Shown here piece by piece: positions 7,301-58,500 of a stretch of 64,000 bases of DNA (its first letter is position 1; the number at the start of each line of letters is the position of its first letter). The position numbers and the translations under genes are program-made. The DNA is from Enchytraeus crypticus. Its lineage: Eukaryota > Annelida > Clitellata > Enchytraeida > Enchytraeidae. The notes below the pieces were generated by a model. The model was not told the DNA's origin. It ran no database searches and worked only from the letters and a program-made list of their open reading frames with translations. The stretch lies in contig CAJHZI010000678.1 of NCBI GenBank assembly GCA_905160935.1, forward strand, positions 1,427,001 to 1,491,000, written 5' to 3'.

Positions 7301-10300
7301 GAGCACTCCATAGATCAACAAGTTAATTTGTTCATAAAAAGCTACGTCTTACGTACTTTTGTCTCTTACCTTATGTAGCCTATAACTCGGAAGCCATATA
7401 GGCTATATAAACTAGATGACTTCTGAGACAGTTTCTCGTTGTCTTCTTAAGCTGTCGTCTCTAACGACGCCTGCAGTTGATTGTTGTGTTTGCGTCAGTG
7501 TCCCGGACACAACACGGGTAATATGTTCAAAGTTACTCTTTTTAAGTGACATGCAGACTCACGATATTATCATATGTTACTTATTTATTTGAGACCTATA
7601 ATTATTTTATTAATTAGGCCTTGTGGAGTTAATACGTTTTAATTAGTAATTGTTAATCCTATCGGCGTATTTATGCAATATTCGGAAAGTAATTATAGAG
7701 TATCACGTAAATTTCTATTACTATTGAATTTTGTTGTTATTCTCGTAACAAGATATATATTACTTGATTCATACAATCGATATATGTGGTTATTATGAGA
7801 GTTTGCCAGATGTATTGATCCAGCTGCACATTTATAAGATATCTGTGGTTGTAAGCAGGATGACGCTGACATCTGTTGTTCTCATTGCATACCAGCTAAA
7901 TTTCTAATTGTGTGAATGCTCCTCTTGCCCAACTCAATTGTGCAACATATATGCCTTTGAGTGCATAATACTTAAAACAGCTCGATTGATTGCTCAAATT
8001 CTTGAAGCTGTTCAATAGGTTGCTCACACTCTTAAAACAGCTCAATAGGTTGATCATACTCTTGAAGCAGCTAATAGGTTGCTCATACTCTTGAAGCAGC
8101 TCAATTGGTTGCTTATGCTCTTGAAACAGCTCAGTAGGCTGTTCATACTCTTAAAACAGCTCAATGGGTTGCTCATACTCTTGAAGTAGCTTAATAGGTT
8201 GCTTATACTTTTGAAGCAGCTCAATAGGTTGCTCACACTCTTAAAAGAGCTCAATAGGTTACTCACACTCTTGAAACAGCTCAATAGGTTGCTCACACTC
8301 TTAAAACAGCTCAATAGGTTGCTCACACTCTTAAGACAGCTCAATAGGTTGCTCATACTCTTAAACTTAAAGATGTTTAGTCATATCGTGTTGAGTGTTG
8401 ATAGGGGACACTTCTCTTTACTGCTGTTCACTTGTTGGTTTTAATGGTTTGCTATGAGTGGTCGCACTCTCACAAGCACTCCAAGTCTATTAATCCTTCA
8501 AGCCGTTCACTTGTTGCTCAAGATTATATCCGCGCACTACGAGAGTCAGAGCATTCTATTTGTTACGAAAGATATCTTGTGGTTGTCGTCTTTATGAAAC
8601 ATCATTGGATTGATGTTTAAGGTGTGGTCTGTAATCACTGTAAGATAACAGAGCACTATATATAGTCCAGAGTAGGGCTAATCAGTGCTTACAATATAAC
8701 AAAAAAAGTAATCTACACTAAGAATTTGTGTTGTCTACAAGACTATCTGAAGTGAATGACGTGCTACTGGTTAACAAATCAAAATCTCGAAGAAATTTTA
8801 CTTAACTTGTAATGCAGATACGAACTAAATATGAGACAAGTTGAAGATTTTATTCAGTCTAGTGCATGACGTCGTACTGTTGAGGCTCGTTATATTACAA
8901 CACAGGCAGCTGCGATGTTTCTAGAAAAGTTATACTGCTATAAGTGGGTGTGCTTTTAACGGATCCCCCATAGATACGCATGTCGAGACAACAGCAACAA
9001 CAGCAACAACAATAGGATTAGAGTGCTACTGTTGTCCATGACAACATCGAACACTGTGGAACCAAATTATAATCGATGAACAGAGTGAGGGGTCCAAAAA
9101 CGGTGCGAGCCAAAATCCGGGTGGTCAGTCCAAGGAAGGGTACTAGCGGAATGGAGGTTTACGTGTTGTCTCAGGTCATGGACATTTGGTGGATAGGAAA
9201 GACGCTTATGGTGTTTGTATTTAGAATAGCTTAAATAAAGAAGGAATTGGCAGTGAACATGGAACTTAAATAACGTATGGCAGTGAACATGGAACTTAAA
9301 TAACGTATGCTCCGATGTACTTTTCGGTAATACTGTATTTCACACTATATAGTTTGCCGTTATAATAATTTTAAATTGTTGCATTGTTGGAAGTAATTCT
9401 GTTTTTTAAGTCTATTATATACTCAGTTATAGCAATCAATCGGTAAAAATATTTCTATATTTCTTATCGATTTATTAAGTTGCGTTAATTAGAAATGATA
9501 AATGATAAAATGGTGTCTGATGAACAGTTGATGGAATATAGAGCCAGATAACAATAGGTCAGTCATAGACCGCAGATAGTGTAATGCGTTGTAATTCTGT
9601 TAGTATTGCGTGTAGTCTCTGTAGGTCTATTCTCACGTGAAGCCGCTGGAAGGAGTACAGCTATTCCCCTGATGGACGTATTTAGTCCTGTGTATTGTAT
9701 TATTCCGTAGTTTGCTGTATTTTTTGCATTGTCCTCTAGTTCATTGTATCGGCTGTTTGCTATTTTATAAATTTTCATTGTATTCTATTGTATTTTACAG
9801 TTAGAAAGCTAAAAAAGTATAGCCTACTGTACTATATACTTGACTGGCTCCAGTATTTTTCAGTTATTTACTGTATAATATATTTTTTGCTGAGTATGAT
9901 ATTACCCGTTTGGATTTTGATGTATTGTCTGGCACTGTAGTTTATTTTATGACATTTAATTGAATTATATTCTTTATATTGTTCTTTTCATTGTATTATA
10001 TTCATTTTATTATATTCTATAGATATTGTATTGTATTGTATTGTAGTCTCAGTACTCGTCACAGGAGCGCCTGGCTCAGCTACAACTGTTGCCTCTCATG
10101 TATTGTATTGTATTGTATTGTATTGTAGTCTCAGTACTCGTCACAGGAGCGCCTGGCTCAGCTACAACTGTTGCCTCTCATGCATTGTATTGTATTGTAT
10201 CGTATTGTATTTTATTATATTGTATTGTATTGTAGTCTCAGTACTCGTCACAGTGACGCCTGGCTCAGATACAACCTATACTTCCCTTGTATTGAATTGT

Positions 10301-11209
10301 ATTGTATTTTATTGTATTGTACTGTTCTGTATTGTACTATCTTGTATTGTATTGTATTATATTGTAGTCTTAGTACTCGTCACAGGAGCGCCTGACTCAG
10401 ATACAACCTATACCTCTCATGTAGTGAATTATTTTGTACTGTACTGTATTGTACTATCTTTTATTGTACTATCTTGAATTGTATTGTATTGTAGTCTCAG
10501 TACTCGTCACAGGAGCGCCTGGCTCAGCTACAGCTGTTGCCTCTCATGGACGACAACAACACTGTTCACTTCAGCAGCAACGACAGCAACCCCACCGTGG
10601 AGGAGGAAGAGGAGGAAGACCTAGACGATCAGAGGAGGTGCCTATTCTCTGTCTTTCTCTCTCTCTCTCTCACACACACACACATCTCTTTCTCTCTCTC
10701 TCTCTTTCTCTCTCTCTGTCTCTCTCTCACATCTCTTTCTCTCTCACACTCTCCCTCTCTCTTTCTCTCTCTCCGAATCTCGGCTACTTTGCTGCACCTC
10801 TTCCTTCATCATTCTCATGTTCTCAACATATGGTTATATTTTGACTGGACTTCTCAAATATAATTATGTTTGTGTAGCAGCAAAATTACATGACTACGTA
10901 TTGCTTTCTTTGCCCATCTCTTAATTTCAGGTAAAGCGGTGTAATTTCTCCTTTTTGGTGACAAGGAGAACGGGGAAAATTTATACAGCTGTAAAGCTTA
11001 ATTAAATATCTGCGCTTCAACTAAAAACTACTATAGTAGAATTGACAGTTGTCATCAGCATCATCATCTTCCTTTGTATCCCAGTTTAACTAAGGTCGGG
11101 AATAGAAAATTTTGTAGTAATTTCTGGAGCCTTAGCTCTCATCAACTATGCTCTCTTTGACATTGGTATCAACACTTGTATATCTGGATCTGCATAATGA
11201 TATTTATTA

Positions 11210-11289
<80 letters not shown>

Positions 11290-11363
11290 CACACACACAC
11301 ACACTCACACTCACACATCATCATCGTCATCATCATCTTCAGTTAAACTAGGGTCGGGATATG

Positions 11364-11416
<53 letters not shown>

Positions 11417-11519
11417 TATATAGCAGTATCATCAGTATATATGTGTGTATATCCCGACCCTAGTTTAACTGGGATTGAAGGAAGATGATGATGACGATGA
11501 TGATGTATGTGTGTGTGTG

Positions 11520-11600
<81 letters not shown>

Positions 11601-12749
11601 CTCCAGTATAAGAAGAGACAGCTGTGGCAGTGGTACGGACAGCAGTATCATCAGTCGTATGTCTGCTGTGAGGCCCAGGTCACATAGTCTCAGGTGAGCC
11701 TAGTTGTCTCTTGTCTGGTTTTACGTAAATGAACTGTTAAATTAATATGCATTATTTTAATTAAGAAAGTAATTCAGAACTTGACGATATAGACACCTGT
11801 AGAAGTATTTAGAAAATACTAATAGTTCGATTGTGCTATGTTTCATGTAGCTTTAAATGGATTGTCTTAATATATCTCTGAAACATATTTATTTATTTTC
11901 CTAATTATTGCATAGGTTTGTTTTTCTGAACAACTATGTAAATTCATCGAATAATTTATATTTGTATTACTTAGAGGTACTGCATAGAGGTACTGACGGT
12001 GATTACCAGACTGATTGATGTAGTGTAAATTGCTCTATCACATGTACAACACAGTATACCAACACAGTCAAGCATAGCACAGTATGCAGCGGTATGCCAA
12101 AGCATAGCACAGTATGCAGCGGTATGCCAAAGCATAGCACAGTATGCAGCGGTATGCCAAAGCATAGCATAGTATGCAGCGGAATGGTATGCCATAGTAT
12201 AACATAGTATGCAGCGCAATGGTATGCCATAGTATAGCATAGTATACATACTATACAGTCCTGGTAGATAACATATTTATTGTACACTCGTGTTTGTATG
12301 CATTGTGTACACTCGTGTTTGTACGGATTGTGTACACTCGTGTTCGTACTGATTGTGTACACTCGTGTTTGTATGCATTGTGTACACTCGTGTTTGTATG
12401 CATTGTGTACAGTCCTGGTAGATCACCTAGCACTGAGGTCGAAGCTACGATGCTCATGAACAATATCTACTGTGAGAGGTTTCCTAAGGTATGCATTTTA
12501 TTTCAAGGTCTGATTCTGATATTTAAGATTTTCAACTTTTTCAAATCTCTTGTGTCTTTCCCGATTTAATCGATTTTGGCTAGGATACTGGAGGACTACT
12601 TGTTTTTCTTGTTTCTTCATGATTATAATTAATATTATTATTATTCTTCTTCTTCCCTTTAATCCCAGTTTCACTAGGGTTGGGATACGAATGGACCTTC
12701 TCCACTTCTCTTTGTCCCATACCATATCAAAATCTCTTCAATTCGTTTT

Positions 12750-12787
<38 letters not shown>

Positions 12788-14528
12788 GTACGCTCATGTT
12801 ATTATTAATTATAATTATTATTATATTAGTGATGATGATCGATCAGGATAATCATTCGTAAGTTCTTAAGAATGATTATCCGTGACTCATTTTCAGTTCT
12901 TCTAAGCACATATGTCTTTAGCATTTCTATATTGTTCTATAACTAAGTAAAAAGCTGGCAAAGCTAATGTTAACGTCAGTTTCCTCACTCGAAAGCAATG
13001 TCAGTGACAGGCGAGCCCAGGATTTGAACCCCGCACATACTGATCAGCAGTAGTTGTAGTCGAGGAACCTGATGTAGTCGTCGATGATAAAACAGACATT
13101 AAACGTGGACGTGTTGTGTGTAGGCGGTGGAGCAGATGGAAGAGCGACTGATCCAGTTCATAGAGGCGAGCACGTCAGTGTCGAGCATGTCCCTGCAGGA
13201 AGAGGTGGAATGTTCCGGAGCTGTGCGCTTCGTCGTCAACCAGGTCGTCAAGCTGGCGACAGATTGTCTGCAACAGTCACGTGACAAACTTCTCTCCAGC
13301 TCCTACTTCTATGAACTGTCCGAGAATCTACAGACGCTACTCAACGATGTTAGTCTTTCTGTAGTGATGTGTGCTGTTGGGACGTCCCTGACGTCATCCC
13401 TGGATGAGGAAACCGACGTTAAACCTTTATTATTATTATTTTTGTCCAATATAAAGTTTTATCGTATAGTTTACAAAGTATGCTAGGTATGTGTACTAAG
13501 CTTTCCAAACATGGCCTATTGAGACGACATCAACGTGGAACTGCCGATTCTAAACTATTTAATTTAATTGCAATTCTTCTGTGCAACAGGAATACTGCCA
13601 GAAATGTTAAACGGCTAAAGAATTAATTTCTCGTTGTTTGACTATTACTGCGACTATTGCTGATTTTGGCTAAAGAGCAGTTGCTTGATTGATCGATTTA
13701 TGTTGATACGATTGATTGATTACGGACTAAAGAGCAACATAAAGAGCGGTCGCCTATTTATCGTGGTAATTGATTGATTGATTGCAGGCTAAGGAGCAGT
13801 TACCTATTTATTGTATTAATTGATTGATTGATTGTTGGCCAGGGAGCGGTTTCCCATCTATTTATTATATTAATTGATTGATTGCAGGCTAAGGAGCGGT
13901 TGCCTACCTATTTATTGTATTAGTTGATTGATTGCTTGATTGATTGCAGGCTAAAGAGCGGTTGCTTACCTATTTATTATATTAATTGATTGATTGATTG
14001 TAGGCTAAGGAACGGTTGCCTGTCTCAGGCTCAGAGCCGATAGCTCAGCTTATTAAGCGCCTCCTCATCATCGTGTCCCGACCCTCTCGTCTGCTCGAGT
14101 GTCTCGTATGTCTGTTCTTCGGTCTCTCTTCCTCCCTCTCTCTCTCTCTCCCTCCCTCTCTCTCCTCTCTCCCTCCGTCGCTCTCTCTCTCTCCCTCTCG
14201 ATTGTTTAATAGCCATTCGATTCAACTGAGTTTTGATTTTTTACGTGCTCTTCAAGCCTGTACTATATTTCATTTGTTAGATATAGAGCAAATATGACTT
14301 GCATATTCTTGGAATGTTTAAAGCTTTTCATCTAGTTCTTCATGTAGTTTAGTGTGCGTACTGTTTCAAGGTACTTTTATAGGAAGCCAAGTGCATTCAT
14401 ATACAGTTCTTTATTGTATTTATACCATCTGAGTATTGTAATTTATTTATGTATTTATTGCAAGTTATTACAATGTTAAATGAAAAACTACCGTATGTGC
14501 ATGTAGTTTTTACTACATGTAGTTTTTA

Positions 14529-14582
<54 letters not shown>

Positions 14583-14607
14583 TGAATTTTATGTATATAT
14601 ACATATA

Positions 14608-14660
<53 letters not shown>

Positions 14661-14664
14661 CCTG

Positions 14665-14706
<42 letters not shown>

Positions 14707-14731
14707 TATATGTATATATACATAAAATTCA

Positions 14732-14802
<71 letters not shown>

Positions 14803-17800
14803 CAGGAATTCAACCCAGAAGAGTTTTACTACCTGTTAGAAGCAGCTGAAGGTCAGGCCAAGCAGACTGTGAAAACAGACATTCCGCAATACATCATCAG
14901 CAAACTTGGTCTTAATAGAGATCCCATATCAGGTTAATTCAAAGAACTTTTCTTTATTTCCGGTATATCAGTTTACGTATTTCATTGCTATACTGATATC
15001 AAAGTAATTGTAAAGAATTTAGAAAATATTTGTAAATACTGATATCAGAGTAATTGTAAAGATTTAGAAGACTTAAATGCAACAGCTAGAAGAGTCTATT
15101 TTGTTTTCTAAGTTGTTTTAATGTTAATCTGTCAATCTGACTATTTTTAAAAGACGATTTATTCTGGAGACCTGATTTGAACTGATAGAGATACTTTAGA
15201 AAACAAATTTAATAATACTCACGCAAAGAACTTACTGTATAGGCACCTTATCCAATGAAGTTGCATATTGTTATTTGCACAGATTTATCGAGAGCAGAAG
15301 CCGAATACAGTAGCTTAGATGGAAGCGTCGCTACAAACTCTGACACCGATGATTCCGTGGATGTTAGTATCATATTTAGTTATTCTGAATTATTAACAAT
15401 ATCAAAATTTTAAAATCGTTAGAAATATCATCTGGTATTTGTTTTAAACTTATTTGGTTGATGTATCAGTAAGAATTTTATTGAAATTTATTTATTTAAC
15501 TAAATTAATATTCTATATTAAATTCATCATTTGGTTTATAAGAAAGTTATGCAGAAGCAGTCAATTTTTATCATAGTATAGTACTACTTTTGTATTATTT
15601 CTATTATAATACACAGTATATATCTTATAATATAATATTAATAAAGGTTTAACGTCCGTTTCCTCATCCAGAGATGATGTCAGGGACTTCCCCAACAGCA
15701 CACATCACTACAGATCAATTCACCCAGTCCAATCTGCAAAAGAAATGTGCCGAGGAGAAATATACCCATCAGTGGAACTGTTTTGATTTGAATTCTGTAT
15801 ATAGTGATATATAACTAGTCACACTTGTGTATGTGCGTATTTTTCTTATTTTTGTACAGTGTAAGCCGGCGGACAGGCGGCATGTTAAGAGGTTTTTATC
15901 TGGCAAGAAGCCTCCCTGTGAAGATGACTTTGAATCTATCAAACTTATCAGCAATGGAGCCTATGGGTACGACGTCGCTATTCTTTTAATCATTTGACCT
16001 TTAGAATGTCTACGTTCTGCTAGTATTTTTAAGTTTTTTACCAGTATTTTTCGTATGATACATGTGTGATGTGATGTATTCAGGAGTGTGTATTTGATGT
16101 GATGTATTCAGGAGTGTGTATTTGATGTGATGTATTCAGGAGTGTGTATTTGATGTGATGTATTCAGGAGCGTGTATTTGATACGCCACAAGGACACTTG
16201 TATGATACATGTGTGATGCATTCAGGAGTGTGTATTTGATACGTCACAAGGACACTCGTATGATACATGTTTGATGTATTCAGAAGCGTATATTTGATAC
16301 GCTACAAGGACACTCATTTGATACATATGTGATGTAATGTATTCAGGAGCATGTATTTGATACGCCGCAAGGACACTTGTATGATACTTGTATGATGTAT
16401 TCAGGAGCATGTATTTGATACGCCAAAGGGACACTCGTATTATACTTGTATGATGTTTTCAGGAGCGTGTATTTGATGTGATGTATTCAGGAGCGTGTAT
16501 TTGATGTGATGTATTCAGGAGCGTGTATTTGATACGCCACAAGGACACACGTCAGATATTTGCGATGAAGAAGCTGCTCAAGTCTCACCTTGTGCTGCGC
16601 AATCAGGTGGAGCAAGTGTTTGCTGAGAGAGACATACTCACGTTCTCTGACAACCCATTCGTCGTCAGCTTCTACTGCAGCTTCGAAACCAAGGTATGCC
16701 ACTTATGCTGACGTCCCTGTCATCATCCTTGTATGAAGAAATGGACGTTAAACCTTTATTATTAACCTTTATTATTATCTTGTGATATATACATGTCATC
16801 ATCATCAGCATCCTCCGTAGAATCTCAGTTCAACCAGGGTCGGGATACTAATAGACTGTCTCAAATCCTCCCTGTCCCACACCATATCATCCATCTGTCA
16901 AGACCCTATTTGAGACTTTCCATTTGTTGAAATTTTTGTTGCAATTTCTGGAGCCTAGGTTCTCACCAACCGAATGACCTTTCTGACTTGATATTGTAAG
17001 GGAAAGTACCAATGAAGGTACTATCAGCCTAAACATATCACGAAAATGAAAATATATGAGAATATTTACAAAGTCCTGGACCTGGTTCAAATCTCAGATA
17101 TCTCAGACAAATGACAGGAGAGCTAATGAGACATTCAATGTCTCATCTATTTTAAATACCTACGCTAAGAAGTATTTAGCAAACTGCAGAAGTTACTAGT
17201 TAATTAAAGGAATATGAATTCCTTAATTAATGTTTTATTACGAATAAAACAAAATATAATGTGTAAGAAACTACAACAAGTTAAACGACGTGAATGTAAA
17301 ACTAAATTACAGTCAAATTAATAATAATTAAATTAATAATATTTTAAATAAATAAATAAACATAAATAAGATGTTCGTTAAATTACTAAATCACCTTTTA
17401 AACAGCACAGGACGAAATATAGTCAAAGAAAGTAAGAAAGGGACGTTAAACTGTACTTCCACACTGGTTGTACATTATCTGTGATTAATACATGTGTTAT
17501 GCTATGCACCAATTTATCAGTATATGGAAACCTCACTACAGTAGAATTCCCCTAGGAAACTGGTCTCTAAATTATCCCTCAAACACATGGATCGTCACCC
17601 ATAAACTTAACAAATGGATTTGCCGCCTGTTTCTAAATCCCGAGATAATTAGATAATCACACTGGCTCTGTTAATTCTTACCAAGGCTAGAGTCTCTGAG
17701 TCTTGAAACGGTTTAGCCGTTTTTTATACCTTGTAAACAAGAACCCCCTAGAAACTATGTTAGCCACATGTGGTAAATTTCACTCAGGCCACAGTACTCT

Positions 17801-20800: not shown

Positions 20801-22401
20801 TGCGTGTGTTTAACTACTCAGTGTAGATTTTATTTATCTAATTGCTATTCAATCTATACTTTATGGAAAAGTCTCAAATAGGGGCTGGACTGATGATGTG
20901 ATGTGGGACAGAGAGAATTTGAGAATTTGATTCGTGTCCCGACCCTGGTTAAACTGGGATTCAAGCGAAGATGACGGTGATGATAATGATTCAATCTATA
21001 CCTTATTTTTAAAACGCCATCTACTCATAATTTAAAATAGAGCAATATTTCATATAAAGCCGTTATATATCGCTGGTCTTCTTCTTATCGTGTCCCCACA
21101 CAGCTTTAAGCCACCTTTTAACGCAATTTTTCGCCGAGTTATTAAATTCCATTAGATCTTGTCGAGTAATTGTTCCACCTGTTAGGCAGCACTGCATCAT
21201 ATGCGCAATATCCTCCTCGTCAATATCACATTTGCACTGTCTTGAATCATTATAATAACCCAGCGACTCATTGAGACCTTCGTTCTACCAACACCTGTAC
21301 GAAACCTGTTTAGACACACCCATGTGCGCTGATTATCATCAGACCCACTGCTGGTCATAGTTGTATATTATCTTAATATATATAAAATAATTGTTAATAT
21401 ATAATTGCTACAAAAACTGAAATGAATGAATCAAGTCTATTTGTATCCTGACCCTAGTTAAACTGGGATTTAAGGGAAGATGATGATGATGACGATGATA
21501 TAAAATAATTGTAGTTTGTATTATTTTTTATACTTTAATTATAGCTTATATTATTTGTTTTTTTCTCATTTCACAGGAAAACCGGTTGACTGGTGGTCCA
21601 TGGGTATCATATTGTACGAGTTTCTGGTTGGATGTGTTCCATTCTTTGGCAACACGCCTGAAGAATTGTTTTCTCAAGTTATAAATGGTAACTCGATCTT
21701 TTTTTATTTATGTATATTCTCTAGGAAATTTAGTTTGAACGATATATTGCGTATTTTGTGTTAAAGTATAATCCTTTCTTAATGTAATTTTCATCCAATG
21801 AAAATATATCATTGAGGGGCGATTTCAAGATTTGAATCCCGTAGATACTTATCCGCCTTGGAACTCCAGCAGCTCAATCCAGAGGCTCAGTCAAATGTTG
21901 ACCCGTGTGGTGCATATGAAGCTGAGTTGTGTTGAAAGAGTTCTACAGGGTTCACAACAGCTTGTTTATTAACGTTCAAGTTGATGCTGCTTCGATACTC
22001 TCGTTAAGATTTTATTGAGACATGAACAGATGTCAGAGTTTGCATGTGGCAGAAATGAGAATGTTACTGTCTAATGTGTGGGAAAACTGTGAAGGACAGA
22101 ACGAAAAATTAATCTGTGTTAATGAGTTTGAATGTTGAGGGGATCAGGGATAGGTTGGCTCAGTCAAGATTGAGATGATATGGGCATATTGTGAGAAAGG
22201 CAGATGAGGATGTAGTAAAGAGAGTTTGGAAGGAAGAACTGGACGTTAAGCTAGAGAGAGGTAGACCACAATTGACATGAGATCCGATGATTAAAAAGGA
22301 CAATAAAAATAGGGGATTGACTGATGATATGGGGTGGAACAAAGAAGATTGGAGAAAGTTTATTTGTATCCCGACCCTAGCTAAACTGGGATTTAAGGGA
22401 A

Positions 22402-22444
<43 letters not shown>

Positions 22445-25400
22445 TGATGTTTTGTACAGAATACGACATATCTTTATCTCGGGTCTCAGAAACATGGCTA
22501 CAGCATCTCAACCACTTTGCTCGCTAGTTCTATCTACTGGAAATTAGTTTTAACTTTGTGTCTTATTTCGTTAACAGCACTTGTGACGCTTAATTTTTGG
22601 TACGATATTCTTCATTTATTAGAGTTATAAAATAATTTTCGTGATTATTTGCCTAACTGTTACTTGATTTGATTGTTTGATTTGATCGCCCGTGTTGTAC
22701 AGAATCCGTGGAATGGCCTGACGAGGAAGATTGTTGTCCACCTGAGGAAGCCAAAGACTTGATATGTCAGCTGCTGCAGCACAATCCGATGGATAGGCTG
22801 GGATCAGGTGGCGCTCATGAGGTCAAGGAACACGTCTTCTTCTATGGACTCGACTGGAACAGTCTGCTGAGACAAAAAGCAGAATTCATTCCTCAACTAG
22901 ACAACGAAGAGGATACGAGCTACTTCGATTGTAAGTTGATACAGATGGATAATGGATCTACAATTAATTTTTTGTAAGAAAAAGTTTAATGGTTTGATAT
23001 GAAAGACTGCGTTCTGAGATCAAAACATATATTCTGGTGTTGTTGTTCATGAAGTTTATGCGATACGGGTCTACAATTATTTTTGTAAAAAATGTTAAAT
23101 GGTTTGATATGAAAGACTATGTGCTAAGATCAAAACATATATTCTGGTGTAATTGTTCAGGAAGTTTATACGTGTATATTAATTTGCAGAAAGATTCAAT
23201 GTCGCTGGGTTTTCGTTTATTTTTAAAATTGGCGGTATTAACTGCTATCGGATCTCCTCATTACTCAATACAATTCTTTATATGGCAGTCGATGCTAAGA
23301 CTTTCATATATACCAGGAGAAGATGTCTCCTGGCATATAGGAGATGTCCTATATACCAGGTGGTGGCCGATAGGACGATATAAGACGATATTAGTGGCTG
23401 AGTTTATAGCACATTTCACGCAACACATTTCCTCATTATTCATTACCTACGATTCTTTATATGGAAGGCGACGCTAAGAATATCTCCTATATACCAGGTG
23501 TTGGCCGAGTTGTTAGCACACTTGTATTTGCTGTTGATGTTTTCAGCGCGCAGTGACCGCTACGACCACACGGCAGGAGAGGAGGACGACACGGAAGACG
23601 ACTCTAAGGATAACTTCTTCCAGAGCTTCTCGTCCTGTTCCCCTCGCTACAGCAAGGTCTGTCTCAAGGGCGATCAGCTCAAAGAGACTGACTCTCTGGG
23701 CGACAAGTCACGTGACAGCAGCGTCTTCTCAGTCAGCGACGACAATAAGGCTTCTGTGGACAGGCGCTCTGACGCCAGCTTCTCTTCGGGCGACTCTCTG
23801 AGGTGTCAGCTGTCGATGGATGAGTCATCGACTGACCTCACGGCCACGCTCAGGTCACCGATGTCCTCTAGCGGACATGATCTGCGCCACCACTCGGAGT
23901 CTGACAGCTCAGCACCGGTCTCTAGCGGCGGGATGTATCGCAGCACGGGAAGCAAGTCCGTGGACGGGTCGAGGAAGTCCTTGGCTGTGTCAAGTGGTCA
24001 CGTGGGTCGTCCCGTGGCCAGCCAGTCGGTGGACGCCGGCGTGGTGATAAGAAAGGCTGAAGTTGATAAGCCTGCGGTTGATAAGCTGTCGGCTCAGAGA
24101 CGCTCTGACTCTGGTGTGTGTGTTCTTATCAGTTCTCTCGATGATAGCAATGAGGAGCAGTGTAGAGTTAAGAAGATTGATACGAAAGTCACGTTCCAGC
24201 AGAGCTGTGGAGATGATGGAGATAGTGACAGGGGCGATACTAGGGAAAGAAGCAACAGGAGTAGTGATAGTAGTGATAGGGTTAGTGACAATAGTGATAA
24301 GGGTAGTGACAGGGGTAGTGATAGGATTAGTTACAGAAGTGATAAGGGTAGTGAGAGAGGTAGTGACAGAAGTGATAAGGGTAGTGAGAGAAGTTATAAG
24401 GGTAGTGAGAGGGGTAGTGCCAGGATCAGTGACAATAGTGATAAGGGTAGTGACAGGAGTGATAAGTGTAGTGAAAGGCTTAGTGATTCTGGTAGTGACA
24501 AGGTTAGTTCTGCCGCTGCGACAGTTGCTGCTAAAAATGAAAATGAATCTATAGAAGTAACCAAGGAACAGGTTAAATCAAATACAACAATTGTCCATGA
24601 CAACACAGATGGTGTTAAAGAGTCGTCTGATTTAATTCAATCTAGTTCAGTGGATGGAGACGAAGTGAAGTCATCAGGAAGCTCTACAGCCTCGCACAGT
24701 ACGAAGGCCACCAGTAGACCGGTGGGAGATAGGGTGGGAAGTATCGTTAAAGCTATGGAGCTGAATCTGCGACTGTTGACAATATCGGCGAAACGTTGCA
24801 CAGAGTCCAAGAAACAGGAACCACCGGCTAGTACTGTCTCAGTGTCTGCTGTGACTTCTACTGATCGACCTCTACCAGCACCTACGAGTAGTCTGGCGCC
24901 ATCTGTAGCAACATCTTCCACAGATCAGCCAACATCTTCATCATCTACTAACAGTCTGCAGACATCCGTGTCTGTCATTGGTCATTCGACTACTGCGTCG
25001 ACACAAAATATTGACCAGACATTAAGAGTCACTACTGTCGGACAAACAGCAGTTGCAGTAAAACTACCCGCTGCCAGTGAGTCGATCGTTGCTACATCGT
25101 TGGCGAGTGCAACGGCAACAACAACGGTTGCTTCGGGAGGTTGTCAGCTGGTAAATGTAGTAACATCTGCCTCAAATCAATCCGGCACAACATCAGCGCC
25201 TGCGACCAACCATCTTCAGAATAAATCGTCTGTGTCGACTACTTCCGTTGAGCAGCCAGTGACGGGCAGATTAACGGCTAACCCAGCAGAGCTGTCTGTA
25301 GCTGCAGAGCAGCAGGCAACGAGTCGAGCAGAAGATAACACAGTGTGCGACGAACAAGCTGCAGTGAATTGCGAACAAGTTCCAACGAACTTCGAACCAG

Positions 25401-28400
25401 CAACGATGAGCAGTGAACGGGCGACAGCGACTGGTGGTTCACGGGTAGTGAACTACAGTGACCGAGCACCAATGAACAGAGAGAACAGCTCGCAGGACGA
25501 TGATGAGACGAGCTACGAGCGGCAGATCTCTCACAAGGGTCAGTCGCTGAGCGAGACGCACTCGCCGTACGACAGTCACGTGTCTGATCAGGAGGTGGAC
25601 CATGGTAGACTCTCCCCGGTCATCATGAGGCTGAGGAGATCCACGGGTCTGGGCATCTCTGCCACCAGCACACCCAAGTCTGACGACGAGCGTGATCTCT
25701 CTGCCCGCAGGTTGACGAGATTGATTGCTGCTCTTATGCTGCTCTAATTGTCTCGTGATTGCTGCTCTTATTGTCTCATGATTGCTGCTCTTATTGTCTC
25801 AAAGATTGCTGCTCTTATTGTCTCAAGATTGCTGCTCTTATTGTCTCAAGATTGCTGCTCTTATTGTGTCGTGATTGCTGCCCTTATTGTCTCGTGATTG
25901 CTGCTCTTATTGTGTCGTGATTGCTGCTCTTAGTATCTCGTGATTGCTGCTCTTATTGTCTCGTGACTGCTGGTCTTATTGTCTCGTGTTTGCTGGTCTT
26001 ATTGTCTCGTGTTTGCTGCTCTTATTGTGTCGTGATTGCTGCTCTAATTGTCTCGTGATTGCTGCTCTTATTGTCTCATGATTGCTGCTCTTATTGTCTC
26101 GTGATTGCTGCTCTTATTCTTTTATGATTGCTACTCTTATTGTCTCGTGATTGCTGCTCTTATTGTCTCATGATTGCTGCTCTAATTGTCTCGTGATTGC
26201 TGCTCTTATTGTCTCGTGATTGCTGGTCTTATTGTCTCGTGTTTGCTGCTCTTATTGTGTCGTGATTGCTGCTCTAATTGTCTCGTGATTGCTGCTCTCA
26301 TTGTCTCATGATTGCTGCTCTTATTGTCTCGTGATTGCTGCTCTTATTCTTTTATGATTGCTACTCTTATTGTCTCGTGATTGCTGCTCTTATTGTCTCA
26401 TGATTGCTGCTCTAATTGTCTCGTGATTGCTGCTCTTATTGTCTCGTGATTGCTGTCCTATTGTCGCTGTGCTAAACTTTGTCGTCGTTTCTGTCGGGTT
26501 TAAGTTTATTGTTAAGTGGTTAAAACAATTTATAATCTCTATTGTTGTTTTATATGTTAGTTAGATTATTTATAACCCCGACTCTAGTTAAACTAGGATT
26601 CAAAGGTAGATATGATTATGATGATGACATTATGATGATGATGATATATTTGTTAGATTATAATGATGATAATAAAAATACTCTTGCTCTTTACCCCTGT
26701 TGTATATTCCCTGGGCCGGATAAAAATGATTCAGGCAGAAGATTCTCTCGCTCATCAGACGGCTTTATAGTTATTATTGTAATTTATATTTAAATCCCAT
26801 CGTCAATGGATACTGGTGGGATCGGTATGCACACTTATACTGTCAGGATCGGTATGCACACTTATACTGTCAGGCTCGGTATGCGCACTTACACTGTCAG
26901 GATCGGTATGCACACTTATACTGTCAGGATCGATATGTACACTTATACTGATGTTTAACTTATAACCAGGCCTGTATTAGAAGTTTGCTTCTCTGCTGTA
27001 GGAGCTGCGGCGAGTCGTCAGAGCTAGTAGCAGCAGCTGCAGCTGCTACGAGCCTGCAGCTGAGAAGAAACCTCTCCCCCACCCATCAGCGTAAGTCACG
27101 TGTCGTGCTGAGACACCGAGCAGCTGGGCGCAACTCTGTGGGCGCCATACCACGCCTCTCCATCTCCATAGAGACCGAGTCCACCAGCAGACCTCTCAAC
27201 AACGGTACGATTGTCTCAATAGCGCAATGGTTAGAGGTGTAGATAGCGTCATGAAGTTTTAAATGACAGACCCTGTGGTGACTGGAACCCTTCTGGGTTC
27301 GAATCCCAGCCGCGCTGATCTGAGAGTAAAATCTCGGACTGGACTGGTTATTCACTGGACTGGTTATACGGAAAATGGACTAAACTACCTAACGGTTTAA
27401 ACATGTGGTATTAAAAGTGATAGATATCAACATAGTTGATCATATCACTATAATGTGTGTTATTATCATTATTACGTGCCCCCAACATCATCCGTTTATT
27501 CATTCCAATAAAAGAAGCTAAGTTTAAAAAGCAAAGGCTGGTAAAGCTAAGGTTAACCTCAGTTTCCTCACTCGAAAGCTATGTCAGTGACGGGAGTGCT
27601 CAGGATTTGAACCTCGCACGTATTGATCCGCGGTCGAGTACCTTACCGACGTTGCCACTGGCTCCAGTCACTCTGTTAACGTCTGTTTCTGTATCACAAG
27701 GGACATTGTCAGAGACGACCCCGCTGGGATTTGAACTGAAGGCCTCCTGCTTCTCAGGCAAGCGTGCTATGTATTCGGCCATCCAACAAATATCCATGAT
27801 ATAAGTTTTTTTACAACGGACAGTAAATGAAATTAAATAATTTATTCTGAAAAAGTTCAATTATTATTTGATATTAAATTTAGCTATTAAATGCAAAGGC
27901 TCACTGTGCATAAATATTACTGAATGTGTTGTATATGCAAGTGTAACTATTATTGTAGTTTTTTTGTTCAGATGACACAATTTTTGCTGTACAAAAATGA
28001 AAAGATTTTGATTTTTGATCATATTAAGCTATTAATATAAACAAATTAATAAATAAGGATAATTTATTATTATTCATGTTAAGCTATTACGCTATGTGAA
28101 TTACGACTAGTTCTATAGCACCTTCCTCTAATTCTCACTTCTACTATACGCAGCTAGTTAACTGATTTTACTGTAGATGAAGACAATGTTCGACCTGAAC
28201 TAAGTAAACTGCTCCTGCCTCTCAAGAACTCTGGTTCACCCACATCGAGTCCTCGCCTGCTGTCCACCCGCTCCATACACCAGTCGCAGACTGTCAGGTC
28301 GAGAGCCGACAGGTCGTCCGTGGACCAGGGCTACCGGTGGGCCGGTAAGAAGTCCCTGCCCGGTAAGATGGACCCGAGCGAGATCATCGCGGCCCGGCAG

Positions 28401-31400
28401 AGTCTACCGGCAGAGGGCGGCAACGCTTGGCTGCACCACACCCTGCAGCAGCTGAGCGTGAGGTCCATGCACAAGTCTGCCTCTGCCACCTCCCTCACCG
28501 TGGCCTCCCCTACCTCACGGCGTGACCTGGGGCTGCGCAGTAAGTCCTGGCGAATCTGTTCTATCGTGCGCAGTTTTTATATTACTCGTTAAGTCGTATA
28601 GTCGAGCATTCTTCTTTGTATCTCCACTTTATGCTGATAGAGTAGAAATGACATCCCTGCCTGTTTATTACATCTGAAGCGCAGTTTTCAGTAGAGCTTA
28701 GGTTACTTTTGACTGCTCCTTTCTTCCATACGTTCCACCTTTCCCTCCTCTTTCAGTCTGTTATCCTCTTTCAGTCTTTCCATCCTCTTGGTGTTAAATA
28801 TCTTTCTAGGATTTCTGTATTTGTCCATAGTTAGAACACGTCCGGCCCCTTTCATTTGTTCTCGTGTTGATGATTTCACTTACATTTGATGTTTTGTCCT
28901 CTTTTAAAGTCTTTATTTGTTTTTGCTCTTTTTTTCTATAGTGAAATAATTTTTTATGTATTTCTATAGTAAATTATTTTAATGTATTTTATATATTTCT
29001 ATAGTGAAATGTTTTAATGTATATCTATAGTGAAGTATTTTTGATGTATAGTGAAGTATTTTTTATTATGTTTCTATAGTGAAGTATTTTTATGTATTTC
29101 TGTAGTGAAAGTATTTTTGCTGTGTTTCTATAAGTAACTGCTTTTTATCTGTTTCTACATTAAAGTATTTTGTATGTGTTTCTGTACCGGGGTATTTTGA
29201 TTGTTCAGCTGACTCAGGGCACCAGTCAGACCTGCTCTCCCCCGCCTCGAGCACGAGCTCTCGAGACACCTCGCCCAACCGCGACTCTGTCTTCTGCGGT
29301 CCCCTCAAACCACCCATGACGATACGCCGCGGTCCTCGAGGCTACGGCTTCACGCTGAGAGCCATTCGAGTCTTCTCAGGAGGAAACTCCGAGTACTACA
29401 CCCTGCATCACATGATTGTTGTAAGTCTGGCTGTCTTTGTTACATCATGTGATTGTTGTGTCATTGTTGACATCATATGATTGTTGTAAGTCTTGTTGTC
29501 ATTGTTGACATCATATGATTGTTGTAAGTCTGGTTGTCATTGTTGACATCATATGATTGTTGTAAGTCATCATATGATTGTTGTAAGTCTTGTTGTCATG
29601 TCATTGTTGACATCATATGATTGTTGTAAGTCTTGTTGTCATTGTTGTTGTAAGTCTTGTTGTCATTGTTGACATATGATTGTTGTAAGTCTTGTTGTCA
29701 TTGTTGACATCATATGATTGTTGTAAGTCTTGTTGTCATTGTTGACATCATATGATTGTTGTAAGTCTGGTTGTCATTGTTGACATCATATGATTGTTGT
29801 AAGTCTTGTTGTCATTGTTGACATCATATGATTGTTGTAAGTCTTGTTGTCATTGTTGACATCATATGATTGTTGTAAGTCTTGTTGTCATTGTTGACAT
29901 CATATGATTGTTGTAAGTCTTGTTGTCATTGTTGACATCATATGATTGTTGTAAGTCTGGTTGTCATTGTTGACATCATATGATTGTTGTAAGTCTTCCT
30001 GTCATTGTTGACATCTGTCACCTTATATCCATTTGTTCACCTTTATTAATACTTGGCTTTAGTTCGACTCGTTTTTTTGTTAAGTACTTGTGATATATTG
30101 ATTTAATTGCTTATTTGATCTAGTTTACGAAATTAAAATTCGAATTCTATGTAAATTTAGTTTTTCTGATGGTGCAGTCATAGTTTTTAAGAATTCTCTA
30201 GAAGATTTTTCTTATAGAAAAACATTGTTTAGTAACCTAATTGTGTCCTTGATCATGAGAAGGTGCTACTATTTTATTTCGTCTCTCTTAGTGCACTGTC
30301 TACTGGCAGGTCCATGGCATTTAAAGCCTCCTATTCTTAGCTTATGCGATCCTAGTACGTTTCTCTGTCTTACATTAATATCGTTATGTAAACATTTTTT
30401 AGTTTCTTTGCTGCCTGATATTCAATCAATCGATCAATAAAGATTTAATGTCCGGTTCCTCGCCATAAGGCAATGTCAGAGATAAATGTTGACAGTGATT
30501 TGTCTGCTCTCTCACAAGTCGATTGTTTTGTAGAACGTGGACAAGGACAGCGACGCCTACGCCTCTGGACTGCGTAAGACGGACATCCTGTCCCACGTCA
30601 ACAACACTCCTGTGCACGGACTCCTGCACGTTCAGGTGGTGTCTCTCATCCTCAGCAGTGCGGACAGGGTCAAGGTCCAGGTCGCCTCTCTCAACAACAC
30701 GACGATACGCAAGTGTCCGCAGCCCAGGCGGGCCGGCAACATGCCGGGCAGAATGCTGCGCATGGGCGCCGGCGTGACGTACAGCAGCGGCAGCAGCGGC
30801 GGCAGAAGACTGCGCGGTAGCGACGAGCGCCGCAGACTATCCTCTCTCTTCAAGCGTCTGAGCAATCGTAAGGTGGAACAGCTGAGTTCACCTGGAATAG
30901 CGTCCCCGGTGCGGATGGGTATCGCTGGATACAACAGATCGTTGAGTTCAGGGGACACTCTGCCGGACTCGCCGCCTCAGCTCGCGCAACAGCGGTCGCC
31001 GCCCTTCTCCCTCAAGGGCATCATCACGCGCAACGACTCGGGCTCGAGCAGCGGGTCTAGCGGGCCCAACTCCCCCAGTCAGTCGAGCAGCAGACCCAGC
31101 ACCCTGCAGGGTCTCAGACATCGGGTCAGCCTGGGCCCAGCTGTCAGCCCCGTGGCGAGGATTGGTCCTAAACATATCGGCTGCTCCGCTTCACATCGCC
31201 GGAAGTCCTGGCACAACATTCCACCCTCTCCTCTCGCTCGTACGCCGGTGTCATCTCCCATGGCAACGTCTCCGTCATCGGTGACGTCCAATCAGGGGAC
31301 TCCGTCGTCGTCGTCCGGCCACCAGGCGGCAGCACCCAGCTCTGGGTCGACTAAAGGTTCAAACACGAGCGGTCAGATGTTGTATCCACCCGGGATATCA

Positions 31401-33092: not shown

Positions 33093-33110
33093 GAAGCTAA
33101 TGTTAAGAAG

Positions 33111-39012: not shown

Positions 39013-39255
39013 TGTCTCCATGGCTCAATGGTTAGAGGTGTGGATAACGTCATGATCTTTTAAATGACAGATCCTGAGGTGAATTCAACTCTCGTGGGTT
39101 CGAATCCCAGCCGCGCTGATCTGAGAATAAAATCTCGGACATTCACTGGGCTGGTTATACGGAAAATGGATTAAATTGCCTAACGGATTAAACATGTGGT
39201 GTTAAAAAGTGATAGATATCGACATAGTTGATTATTCACTATAATGCGTGTTTAC
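39013..39255 (+). mobile_element. S1 SINE
   Basis: tgtctccatggctcaatggt, ggttcgaatcccagccgcgc, tail ataatgcgtgtttac. Confidence 0.88.
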
Positions 39256-40443: not shown

Positions 40444-40523
40444 ATGTCGAGACGCCACAACTCGACACTTCCTCGAGGTCGCCAGAGGGGAGAGGAATAT
40501 GATCCAACGCAGAGATATAAGAG
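40444..40523 (+). CDS. RHBDF: iRhom exon 1, start codon
   Basis: First ATG after an in-frame TAG at 40426-40428. Encodes [20 protein letters not shown] and PTQRYK. The donor (AAGAG|gtagga, phase 2) matches the one base that exon 2 supplies. The N-terminus of iRhoms is poorly conserved, so an additional upstream start cannot be excluded. Confidence 0.72.
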
Positions 40524-52500: not shown

Positions 52501-55500
52501 ATTGGTTCAGATATTTCTGGTTTAGATTCTGCTAGATTGGCTAGTATATAATTATCAGTAACATCATATCTCTCTCTCTCTCTCTCTTAGTGCACTGCCT
52601 ACTGGCAGATCCATGGTATACAGCGCCTCCACTCTTCTCTGTCTTCCAATTTCTTCTTCATTTCCACATGTGCGTGGGTCTTTAAATAATCTAACATACC
52701 TAATCTCGGCCTGCCCCTGCCTCTTATTCCCTTCTATTCTACCTGCTATGACCTCTATTAATAGACCTTCCCCCCTTAGGATGTGTCCTATCCAACTCTT
52801 CTTCCTATTTCTTAATACATTTATTTCTTAATACTTAAACACATAAACATCATATAACTGTTGTTTTATTTCAGGCCCTATTTTACATACTGGGTGACGT
52901 TTGTTCAGATCGTCTGCTTCATAGTTGCTGTGTGTGTCAGTGGAATCTCAACAATAGGCGTTCACAAGACTATCATACGTGGAGAAGTGAGAACCAGTAT
53001 TCTATGAATAGCTAAAACCTTAACAATCAGTCTTCATTTACCAATTACTAAAACCTATGGCATATCATCTATCTTCAGAGCTCTTAGAATTGTAGCAGTT
53101 TACGTATTAGATGATGCTATACAAGCGTTATGATTATGTGCCTGTGAACGTTGTGTTATTCTCATTGTCTTAATCAATTTTTATTGACTTGGTTTTACTT
53201 GTTTTATGAATTTAACTTTGTTTAATGATTTTATTCTTTTAAATAAAGTGTATTGAAATATTTTACTGATTCTAAAAGAGAATAAGTCTTTACTTGTATT
53301 GATTTGAACATTAAGGGCAGTCTAGTTTCAGTATGAGAAAATGAACTTATCTTTGGCCTATTGCTTTGGCTGAAACTTTAATTTTTTTTATAAATAATGT
53401 TTATAATATTGTTTTTGCTATTATTATTAGATTAAATGCACAAACACAATCTGGTTTAATTGGTTCAATCTGGTTTAATCGGGTTTAATTGTTTTAGGTA
53501 TTAACCACCAGACTGACTACGGAGTATGTTGAACGGCCTGAGTTAGACAACATGTGGATTGGACCGCGACAGGTGAGGCTTCTGAATACTCTTTATTTAA
53601 TTATCTTTATTTTTGTTAATGAAAACACTTTTATGTTGTTGCTGATTGGAAGAGTCAGAGTAAATGAATGTCAAGGGTAACTTTTTTTCTGTTTCATATC
53701 GTTAGTCAGCACAGATAAATAATACAAACAATAGAACTTCGTTAGACAGATAAACAATTCAGACTTCAACAACACTTGTGAAATATTTTTTAAAAATATT
53801 ATCAATAGAGGCTATAACAAAAGAACTCTCAATAAATACAAACACTCCATTTAGGAACAACAATCCTTAAGCACCAATGAGGGAAGAAATAATCCTAAGG
53901 TTCTGAATAATAATAGCATCCCTATGATTCTACCTTTTTCTGTAATAGCTCAAGACTTATTTACCTCCTGGAAAAACATCAAAAATAAATTACCACAAAT
54001 AAAAATCATAAAATATTTTAGTAAAAATATGAATCTGGCTTCTATATTAACAAGATCTGATCGTACTAAAAACAAGTACAATCGAAATATTGGGGAGGTC
54101 AATCTTAACAGGTTAATAACTCTTATTGGGCAGGATAAGGATTTATTTTAAAATAATTTTTCGGACTCAGGGAGTGATAATTTGGGGTTTTTGATAAGTT
54201 TTCTGGACGATGAGGAAAGTTTTGATTCAGGAGAGGTCAATTTGGATGGTTTGATAAATTTACTTGAAAATAGTCATTAATGATATTGTTATTACTGAAA
54301 AATACTTTCCTATTCAGTAACGAGCTTATTAACGAAATAATATTATAGTATTTAAATTAATAAACTTAAGAAAAATGGTTTTTTTTAGTGAAAAAACAAA
54401 TATCCTTCTATTGAAATAAAAAATTTTTTAGACAATTGTTTTAAGGAAATGTTCCTTTCTTTTGAATGATTTACATACATACATGTATCTACTCATCAAA
54501 TGGGCCCCTTACAGACTTGTGTCCCTTCGATTCCTTTTTAGGGATCCTGATAAAAAACTTGTCTTTGTGGTGGTGGTGGTGATAATGAATGATGATATTG
54601 ATGATTATGATGGTGGTGGTGGTGGTTGTGGTGATGGTTATCATCATGATCATGATGGTGGTGGTGGTGGTTGTGATGGTGGTTATCATCGTGATCATGA
54701 TCATCATGGTGGTGATAGTGGTGATGATGAAAACGATGACGATGATGATAATTGATTGATCCTAGGCTGATTTGATACACCTGGGTGCTCGGTACACGCT
54801 GTGCATGAGACCGGACATAAACCTGGAGAGAGAGTTGCAGATAGACATCGCACGAGAGAGACAGACAGCGTGTTGTGTGAGGAACGATGGCTCGGGCTCC
54901 GTGCAGACCTTGCAGCACAAGTGTTCGGTCTGTACTCTCTCACCTTCAGCTCACGATTAAATATGTCATGTCATGTCATGTGATCATCCTGGGGCTGGTT
55001 TCAGCCAAAGATTTCTCTATGATTTTCCTCCTCAAAACTCTATTCTTTGTCATTTCCTCGATGTTCATTCTTTTTCTTTCTGCTTTTCTTCCTTAAATGC
55101 AAACTCCAGCAGCCTTCAAGTCTTCTTCGAGGCAGTCCTTCCATCTTCTTTTAGGGCTACCTGCTTATTAATCTGACGATTTATAATAACAACTACAAAT
55201 AATCAATAATTGATTTGTACTACCAAATTAATGCAATATTATTAAGTTATCAATAATTTTTTGTGAATATTTAGACTCAATTATGGGAATTAACTGCAAA
55301 ACCTTTATTATAATTAGATTTAACCCTAAAAAGGAAATGTATATATATGTACATTAATAACAAAAAGACATTAACAAGTAACTGGCAATATTACTAAGTT
55401 ATGGATAAATTAGGAGAAACTTTAAATTCAGTTATGTTAATTAAAATTAGCTCAGAATTTTTAATATTAATAAAATTAAACGTTAAAAAGTAACTGGTAG

Positions 55501-58500
55501 GTCATATGTACTTAGTTAGTTTAGTTAGGAAATTGTAAATCTGTAGAGATATTATAATCAAGCTTTTTGTATGAAATTATGCCACATTGAAGTCAATTTA
55601 AAATAATTTAGCGTTAAATATTCTAGCATCGAAATGGTACTCTTGGTAATTTGACTGTCAACTTCTTCCGCTTATCATTCAAATCTCTCCTGTATCAGCT
55701 ATGTTTGTAGTCTTCTACGAATGAATACAGTTTGGCTGGTCTATTGTCCTGTTAATTAATTCAACTCATTATTTAACTAATGTAATTACAAATTACTGTG
55801 TATGTATTAGGTAGATTCTAATGTTGATGAGCTTGACCAGCTAATTTTATGCATTTCTATGCTTTATCCTTGAAATATGTTCTTGTTCAATGAATTGCTA
55901 TCATCATTCTGATAGATCTCCCGTACCGTGTACGAAATGCTTCCGTGTGTCTGTGTTGTCTCCCTTAGTAACTAAAATGTGATGTGATTTTTTGGAAATG
56001 TAGAATACATTGTCGACGTGGATAAAGTGGAACGGATCAAGTGTAACTCAGAACCGACATTCTGGATCCGTGTGTGGTCAAGATCCTAGGTATGACGTCC
56101 TTAATCCTTTCACACACACACGCTCTCTCACACTAAAAAGCTAAAAATAAGCTAAGGTTAACATCAGTTTCCGCACTCGAAAGCCATGTCAGTGACGGGC
56201 GAGCCCAGGATTTGAACCCGCACATACTCATCCGCGGTCGAATGTCTTACCGACGTCGCCACCGGTTCCAGCCAACACACACACACTCTCACACAGACAT
56301 GCACATTCTGTCTCACATACATTCATATACACGCACACAGTCACACACACACACACTTTCTCAGAGTTTTAGGGAAAATCACTGTATGTTTCTAAAAATT
56401 TATTTCTAAATTTTGCACTAATTCTCAGTCTCGTTTATTTGTTATGAGTGCAGGCTGTGCACTAATCCTCAGTCTCGTTTATTTGTTATGAGTGCAGGTT
56501 GTGCACTAATCCTCAGTCTCGTTTACTTGTTATGAGCGCAGGTTGTGCACTAATTCTCAGTCTCGTTTATTTGTTATGAGTGCAGGTTGTGCACTAATCC
56601 TCAGTCTCGTTTATTTGTTATGAGCTCAGGTTGTGCACTAATCCTCAGTCTGTGGGATCTTTTGAATGGAAAGATGACATCACAGAATGGCCTGTAAGTA
56701 AATTATCTAATATCACCGCTCTCCTCCTATCTCTCTCGCTCTCTATCTCTCTATCTCTCTCTCTCTCTCTATCTCACTCTCTCTTTCTCTCTATCTCTCT
56801 CTCTCTCTGTCTCTCTCTATATCTCTCTCTGTCTCTCTCTCTCTCTCTCGGTACTTTTGCCCATTCAGAACTTAGGCGGCCGTAATTCTACATTAGATAA
56901 TTTTCCTTATACGTTAGGATGCTGTTAACAAACATCACATTTTCATTTTTCACTTCTTTCTGGAGTTACTCTTTTTTTCTTTTTTCACTTCTTTCTGGAG
57001 TTGGAGTTACATCATATTGCAAGTGTAAAGTCGAGTTTAATGTGTATTATGTCGCCTCCGAAACTAATTGGCCATCAGGGTTGATGTACTTTAGTTAAGC
57101 TGAAGTCGCTGGGATGATATCAGCTTGTTGCCTGTTAATATGCTCGTTATTGAGTCATCATCATCTTTTTCTCATTATTCCCAGCTTAATTAGGGTTGGG
57201 ATACGAATAGATCATCTCCACTTCTCTCTGTCCCTTACCATATCGTCAGTCAACAATTTTTTCCATTCGTTTTGGAAACTTTTGTAGCTCAATTCTTGAG
57301 CTTAGGCGCTCACCAACCGAATGCCTTCTCTGACGTTAGTTTTGATCTTAGTGTTTTAGTTGCCTTCTACTACACGTGCGGTCACCGAATTGTCTATTCT
57401 TCAAACAACCCGGCCACAACACGCTGTTTGCTCGCTATTGGGTATGATTGTAAATTATAGAGTATCCCGTATGCCTTGAGCCCTGTCGTCTATAGTTGTC
57501 TGATTGAGATTGAGAAACCGTAGATAACTATCTAATTTTTCTAGATTTGTAAGGAGACACGGAGCATTCCTTCAAAAAGAGATGAATACAGGAACATGCA
57601 GTATGATGTCGTGGGCCGCCCGTGTTGTATCGGTATACAGGGTCAGTGTGAAATAATCACCCGAGAACAGTGCACCTTCCAAAGAGGCTACTTCCACGAA
57701 GAGGCCACTCTTTGCTCTCAGGTATCAATCAATTAATTTAAACAGTAGTTCTAACGATTGCTAATCATTGATTAGTTAAATGATATGATTAAGAGAGCAG
57801 TAGAAGTTAGATCGACTTCGAGGTATCAGATCATCGGACAGTGGCTTCTAGATCTGTGGCCACAAGGCCGCCGTCGTGTGGTCGTGGAGTACATTTTTGA
57901 GCTGCGGCTGATTTGTCGCTTCATTATGGTTGTTATATATGTTAACAACTTTCCCCTGTCTCTTCCATATTTTAAACATTCATGAACTAGACAAAATGTC
58001 AGTAGTTTAAAGTGAATAAAACCTCTGTTTTGCCTTTGAATTGTAGGAAAATTTTATAAGTTTTGATCAAATTTTGGAACGCCTCGTGGCGCAGTGGTAG
58101 AAAGCTCGCCTCTTGAATGAGAGGTCGTGGATTCGAGACTGCATAGCGACCTGGGTTTTTCTCTTCTGAGGGGAGAGTAAAAACCCAGTCGTGTACACTT
58201 GGTGATGTCAGGCCTATGGATAGCCGACCTCAACGTTCCATTTCCTATCCAGTCCCCTCCATATCGACCCCGAATAGGGATTTGCGGCACGCTAAACGGA
58301 AGTTTTTTTGTTTTTTTTATTGTTTTTTTTATAAGTTTTGATCAAGTTTCAAAATAATACTAGAGGTGCATCTATCCTGGGGACACAATATATGAACGCT
58401 TAACAAACCTTACTTACATCACACTGGTACAAAGTTTCGTATTTGTATTTTAAGTGATAATTAGACTTATTGCGGACTAGTATCAGGTTTTGTCGTGATA

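Follow-up and report, generated by a model that had tools for sequence, protein, structure and literature searches.

Tandem arrays whose unit runs across an intron-exon boundary have been described in amphioxus under the name 'mirages' (PMC3087553, PMC3902484; these and the other papers cited below are used from the parts accessible to us). They are known from Adh3, the globins BflGb6 and BflGb9, troponin C (TnC), and PGBD5, with retinol dehydrogenase and presenilin cited as similar. Each is a minisatellite-like duplication across the boundary, at the 5' or the 3' edge of an exon, with many copies that carry AG or GT. Haplotype and somatic instability of copy number has been published, as has evidence from reverse transcription PCR, and the authors suggest that regular splicing is undisturbed. 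The same structure is present in the annelid Enchytraeus crypticus. We analysed a 64,000-nucleotide stretch of its genome (assembly GCA_905160935.1, contig CAJHZI010000678.1, positions 1,427,001 to 1,491,000; hereafter the window), which contains a MAST gene and a rhomboid-like gene, together with 202 exon edges sampled from the genome. The E. crypticus arrays share three traits of mirages: the unit spans the real boundary, acceptors and donors are both affected, and AG or GT is mostly kept. A preliminary description of the window had placed such arrays in no named family. They belong instead to a known kind, and, judging by the literature we found, what is new is the annelid host and an estimate of frequency.

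The two hosts differ in that amphioxus is a cephalochordate, and a frequency over 202 edges is given here. Unit sizes are 10-72 bp in amphioxus Adh3 and about 150-160 bp in the globins; copy spacings in our E. crypticus sample run from 27 to 460 bp (median 43). Less closely related structures are found elsewhere. Human IFI6 (6-16) has a minisatellite at an exon end with units bearing donor sites, but these units serve as alternative donors in transcripts, whereas the E. crypticus spacings show no frame bias (PMC4526556). In potato RdRp, a tandem duplication crossing an intron-exon boundary, acceptor included, gave rise to a new intron (PMC4974935), whereas our search covered copies inside existing introns. 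The metallothionein genes of earthworms, which are related clitellates, contain large minisatellite arrays in intron 1; in the accessible parts of that paper the monomers are called minisatellites of obscure role and the edge content of the units is not stated (PMC12783039). One clone described there has tandem duplications of exon 4 that are missing from the final transcript. A search of open-licence papers, covering some of the hit lists in part, returned no report of mirages in annelids. The accessible parts of the E. crypticus genome paper (PMC8460440) do not mention such arrays, and those of an amphioxus huntingtin paper (PMC2206037) and a yeast minisatellite screen (PMC3618361) contain nothing on arrays at exon edges.

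We located the exon edges of the MAST gene from tblastn searches with its homologues as queries and from splice-site reading. A copy was counted when a 20-mer made up of 8 intron and 12 exon bases recurred in direct orientation, with at most 3 mismatches, on the intron side and within 1500 bp; such intronic copies are termed decoys below. The relevant features of the window are as follows, with the exon numbers of the preliminary description.
10024..10532, + strand: array at the acceptor of MAST exon 10495-10637 (Tandem Repeats Finder, sequence reading, 20-mer criterion, blastn).
10495..10637, + strand: MAST exon with copied 5' edge, exon 4 (tblastn, splice sites).
12251..12488, + strand: MAST exon 12413-12488, exon 6, with a single decoy (Tandem Repeats Finder, 20-mer criterion).
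13753..14021, + strand: array at the acceptor of MAST exon 14004-14105, exon 8 (Tandem Repeats Finder, sequence reading, 20-mer criterion).
16049..16559, + strand: array at the acceptor of MAST exon 16519-16693, exon 12 (Tandem Repeats Finder, sequence reading, 20-mer criterion).
29404..30020, + strand: array at the donor of the MAST exon ending at 29420, exon 22 (Tandem Repeats Finder, 20-mer criterion).
56408..56655, + strand: array at the acceptor of rhomboid-like (iRhom) exon 56631-56691 (Tandem Repeats Finder, 20-mer criterion).
2152..2171, + strand: weak, diverged single match (17/20 bases) to the acceptor of exon 2781-2853 (20-mer criterion).

The criterion was run in the window on 20 acceptors and 19 donors, these being the MAST edges that could be fixed and one iRhom exon. 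Copies were found at 7 of the 39 edges: the six cases already reported and the marginal match at acceptor 2781. Copies confined to the upstream side occur at 2.3% of window positions, and copies confined to the downstream side at another 2.3%, so about one chance positive would be expected among 39. A fairer test is provided by the genome sample, given that the window was picked because it has arrays.

Six introns of the window had been said to hold arrays bearing an exon edge. Five do, with about 15-54 exon bases in each. At acceptor 10495 the unit comprises the acceptor and up to 54 exon bases, an ATTGT microsatellite lies between copies, and four decoys (exon starts 10047, 10129, 10236, and 10368) precede the real start at 10495. 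At acceptor 14004 the unit consists of an ATTG microsatellite, the acceptor, and about 18 exon bases; three decoys are counted by the 20-mer and additional ones are degenerate, one of them lacking AG. Ten decoys with up to 30 exon bases precede acceptor 16519, where 28- and 58-bp units are mixed, and four are counted at acceptor 56631, where the 44-bp unit includes 21 exon bases. Donor 29420 is followed by 14 decoys; the repeat unit there measures 38 bp and includes GTAAGT along with about 15 exon bases. The sixth case, acceptor 12413, has one diverged decoy (12251-12270) comprising the acceptor and 11 exon bases, and the 25-bp array between it and the exon (12281-12411) does not include the exon edge in its unit. 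Three further cases, described as diverged, internal or inverted exon pieces (exons 2, 5, and 9), amount to weak matches: the 17/20 match at acceptor 2781, a 15-nt internal match to exon 11601 at 11422-11436, and an inverted acceptor copy at 14660-14669, read by eye, which shares 10 bases (two exonic) and lies within a TA palindrome. Long TA/TG tracts at 11220-11600 and 14530-14800 hold, by eye, inverted pieces of adjoining sequence, this 10-nt acceptor copy among them.

For the genome sample, 524,188,772 bases in 802 contigs were searched, and exons were taken from Pfam matches to myosin heads (81 matches) and kinesins (128 matches), which were not picked for arrays. The sample comprised 57 myosin and 53 kinesin exons, 110 in all, from 38 contigs. 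Of their 220 edges, 202 were usable (103 acceptors, 99 donors), the remaining 18 being either ambiguous or located where a domain ends. The choice of each edge was based on its splice-site score, the reading frame, and the position in homologues, with ambiguous ones judged by eye; this choice was not strictly blind, as decoys were sometimes visible while it was made. A second batch was drawn from lower-scoring exons in stretches already sampled and from three regions chosen for clustered exons. Counts are of direct, junction-spanning copies only. The control was 203,902 non-coding positions of the same loci, outside the tested exons and their 80-bp flanks, which may include unrecognised exons. 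L047 and L048, two neighbouring kinesin-like matches (C252:65170-68659) that lie in long uninterrupted frames and are possibly retrocopies, were omitted.

At least one intron-side copy was found at 27 of the 202 edges (13.4%). Acceptors account for 18 of these (out of 103) and donors for 9 (out of 99), a difference that is not significant (p 0.10). Two or more copies are present at 18 of the 27 edges, with maxima of 17 at one acceptor and 8 at each of two donors, and a single copy, 36 to 460 bp away, at the other nine. In 26 of the 27, the exon side of the real edge is free of copies. Because the real edge is usually, as it appears, the last copy, the appropriate control for uniform tandem duplication is the share of control positions that lie in the terminal copy of a repeat. 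This share is 2.8% over both batches, compared with 7.8% for the more lenient control of any copy on the given side. In every one of 5000 bootstraps over loci the edge rate was above the terminal-copy share, by a factor of 3.4-6.2. With Tandem Repeats Finder, 9.4% of edges (19 of 202) come within the final 8-90 bases of an array, compared with 4.0% for random points (confidence interval of the ratio 1.38-3.43).

The two batches are unequal, which tells against the excess: 12 of 142 edges were positive in the first and 15 of 60 in the second (p 0.003), and two positives of the second are probably a converted paralogue pair, hence not independent. The first batch alone lies above the terminal-copy control by a ratio of 1.4-5.2, but shows no excess over the lenient control (8.5% versus 7.3%). 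The edge excess thus holds by both measures, although its size is uncertain, at about 2 to 5 fold. The preliminary description would have been refuted had edge-containing arrays been no commoner than arrays of random intron segments. In this sample both measures place edges above random non-coding points, and the claim that such arrays occur in unrelated genes is borne out by MAST, iRhom, and other genes of the genome. Given 13.4% against 2.8%, and with the reservation just made for the first batch, edges are included more often than would be expected of ordinary minisatellites that hit them by chance.

The copies are concentrated close to the edge. At acceptors, 0-6% of 20-mers lie in a terminal copy at a distance of 150-400 bp. 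The share reaches 21-24% where the 20-mer is wholly intronic and begins 28-40 bp ahead of the exon, is 16.5% for 20-mers that cross the edge, and is at most 1% from 30 bp inside the exon. Donors show the same curve more weakly, with 1-4% at 100-400 bp, then 14%, 9%, and 0 from 16 bp inside the exon. A T-rich composition may account for part of the rise just before acceptors. The smooth fall into the exon is as expected of units that straddle the edge with a median spacing of 43. Exon-interior 20-mers at least 30 nt from both edges had a nearby copy in 0 of 7600 cases in the first batch; over both batches, 71 of 9378 exon-interior 20-mers had one. Edge arrays have longer units than other arrays (median Tandem Repeats Finder period 54 versus 22), and longer units are also likelier to be counted by the 20-mer criterion. 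Acceptors with copies (18) and without (85) do not differ in their longest simple-repeat run (p 0.51) or in the TTGA motif (p 0.32). A doubled TTGA-type motif occurs in the last 60 intron bases of 19 of 103 sampled acceptors and in 135 of 3182 background 60-mers.

Most decoys retain the splice-site dinucleotide: 56 of 63 still have AG, and 36 of 37 still have GT. The mismatch rate at the decoy AG is 0.052, compared with 0.076-0.089 at other positions. Spacings fall into the three frame classes as 27/29/44, so that multiples of 3 (27 of 100) are not in excess. When the nearest decoy was considered in 33 cases (27 from the sample and 6 from the window), the frame was kept in 9, of which 5 bring in a stop; 29 of 33 would therefore break the protein if used, through a frame shift or a stop. 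With regard to the mirage trait that the copy at the boundary stays outside the homogenisation of the others, exon differences that separate the real copy from all of its decoys number 18, of which 9 are synonymous and 9 are not, and 11 are at third positions.

We consider it probable that the E. crypticus arrays, like the mirages of amphioxus, are ordinary tandem duplications that cross an exon-intron border, are tolerated at edges, and have no role, the excess arising from survival and detectability and possibly in part from a local hotspot. The units cross the junction in unspliced form, so the template of the copies was genomic DNA rather than spliced RNA or a lariat. A duplication lying wholly inside an exon would alter the protein and be removed, while one spanning the edge would do the exon no harm provided that the spliceosome selects the site contiguous with the exon body (exon definition). 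Once tolerated, an edge duplication could expand through slippage, unequal exchange or gene conversion, as in minisatellite turnover. Arrays anchored on a conserved exon would survive longer and be easier to detect, which may explain the excess, perhaps together with the hotspot. Slippage-like tandem duplication is accordingly the best remaining of the origins that the preliminary description had offered.

Several observations weigh against this explanation. The edge excess (3.4-6.2 by 20-mers, 1.4-3.4 by Tandem Repeats Finder) is unexpected under a uniform neutral process, and exon conservation alone is insufficient, because the purely intronic 20-mers beside acceptors are also enriched (21-24% versus 0-6%). 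GT is better kept in donor decoys than other positions are, with a mismatch rate of 0.019 against 0.05-0.08 (9 arrays, no significance test). Use of the exon-adjacent site, on which tolerance would depend, is itself a prediction from protein homology and splice-site reading.

The climb of terminal copies towards acceptors and donors, and the bootstrap result, could instead reflect a mutational process of this lineage focused on edges, for example through R-loops or replication-transcription conflict at intron ends, by which duplications start within about 50 bp of exon edges. This is a tentative alternative that we regard as rather unlikely. In the first batch (142 edges) the rate does not rise above the lenient control, neither simple-repeat runs nor the TTGA motif distinguish the affected acceptors, and survival, dilution of intron interiors by transposons, and detectability could together yield an excess of several fold.

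A broader form of this proposal, which we likewise hold to be possible but doubtful, is that splice-site neighbourhoods are a hotspot of tandem duplication in this annelid lineage, with near-identical copies at about one edge in eight, often as arrays, and that the arrays act as recombination points which move the adjoining exon between paralogues. The second part would rest on one pair of paralogous kinesin genes, L060 (C617:2797512) and L062 (C405:2586488), which have a 41-bp acceptor mirage in common, with 17 decoys counted on C617 and 2 on C405. The first 105 bases of the exon adjoining the mirage are identical at 103 positions, compared with 182 of 234 and 118 of 150 (about 78%) in two other exon pairs, and similarity falls again deeper into the same exon and beyond. 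In this single case, a gene conversion tract is probably anchored at the mirage.

A selected role for the decoys as splice-site ladders that regulate splicing, which had also been suggested, is very unlikely. The retention of AG and GT, the low mismatch at GT noted above, and the sheer commonness of such edges are compatible with it. AG, however, is preserved to about the same degree as the bases around it, the spacings have no frame bias, most nearest decoys would break the protein, and the kinesin paralogues differ greatly in decoy number despite their common mirage. An artefact of the hybrid long-read/short-read assembly is extremely improbable. Tandem arrays are prone to wrong copy number, and 80.6% of PacBio reads map back to the assembly (PMC8460440), but the units differ by substitutions and intermediate types, a homologous mirage is common to two paralogous genes, and the 27 cases are mostly in separate genes; copy numbers in the assembled arrays may nevertheless be wrong. 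Lariat-derived or reverse-transcribed patches, the remaining earlier suggestion, have nothing beyond their position at exon borders to recommend them and can practically be dismissed, as the units are continuous, direct, unspliced intron-exon sequence whereas a lariat would lack the exon and an mRNA the intron, although it should be noted that the criterion counts only direct copies that span the junction.

In the literature we found, mirages come from a handful of amphioxus genes, and their presence at about 13% of sampled edges in a protostome indicates that they are not a cephalochordate oddity. They offer dozens of natural tests of splice-site choice, including acceptors with up to 17 near-copies upstream. 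If splice-site neighbourhoods are indeed duplication hotspots, the genome would be a natural library for studying how the spliceosome chooses among near-identical sites. In addition, mirages supply material for models, already proposed, in which introns are gained through tandem duplication, and they are likely a trap for gene predictors.

In introner-like mobile introns, the unit is dispersed across many unrelated genes. The unit at 10030-10230, the only one searched in this way, had 185 matches in the genome, and those listed outside the window mostly cover its ATTGT simple-repeat end (about bases 147-201). One match, C607:53685-53808, extends beyond the simple repeat, covering bases 70-201 at 74%.

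The name iRhom for the rhomboid-like gene is suggested by a Pfam Rhomboid match (E 1.6e-12) further along the gene of exon 56631-56691 and by our own reading. For the MAST gene of the window, identity is at most 63% among the 120 matches listed of 4986, and no named one among these is from Branchiostoma. The COX1 of the genome is 95% identical to entries of Enchytraeidae and Lumbriculus in a database clustered at 90%. Both results speak against an amphioxus origin of the DNA, to which the literature on mirages had pointed. A coding repeat lies at 24251-24501 within a long MAST exon. Near the end of the long MAST open frame begins an array of about 32 copies of a 23-bp unit (25720-26465), which may be a further edge case, the exon donor there not being fixed. 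At 58599-59054, an open frame resembles what we take to be the C-terminal end of a non-LTR reverse transcriptase. Elsewhere in the genome, five COX1-like fragments (on C361, C424, C796, C373, and C166), all with TGA codons and one of them under the family cut-off, are probably nuclear copies of mitochondrial DNA; COX1 itself is on C802.

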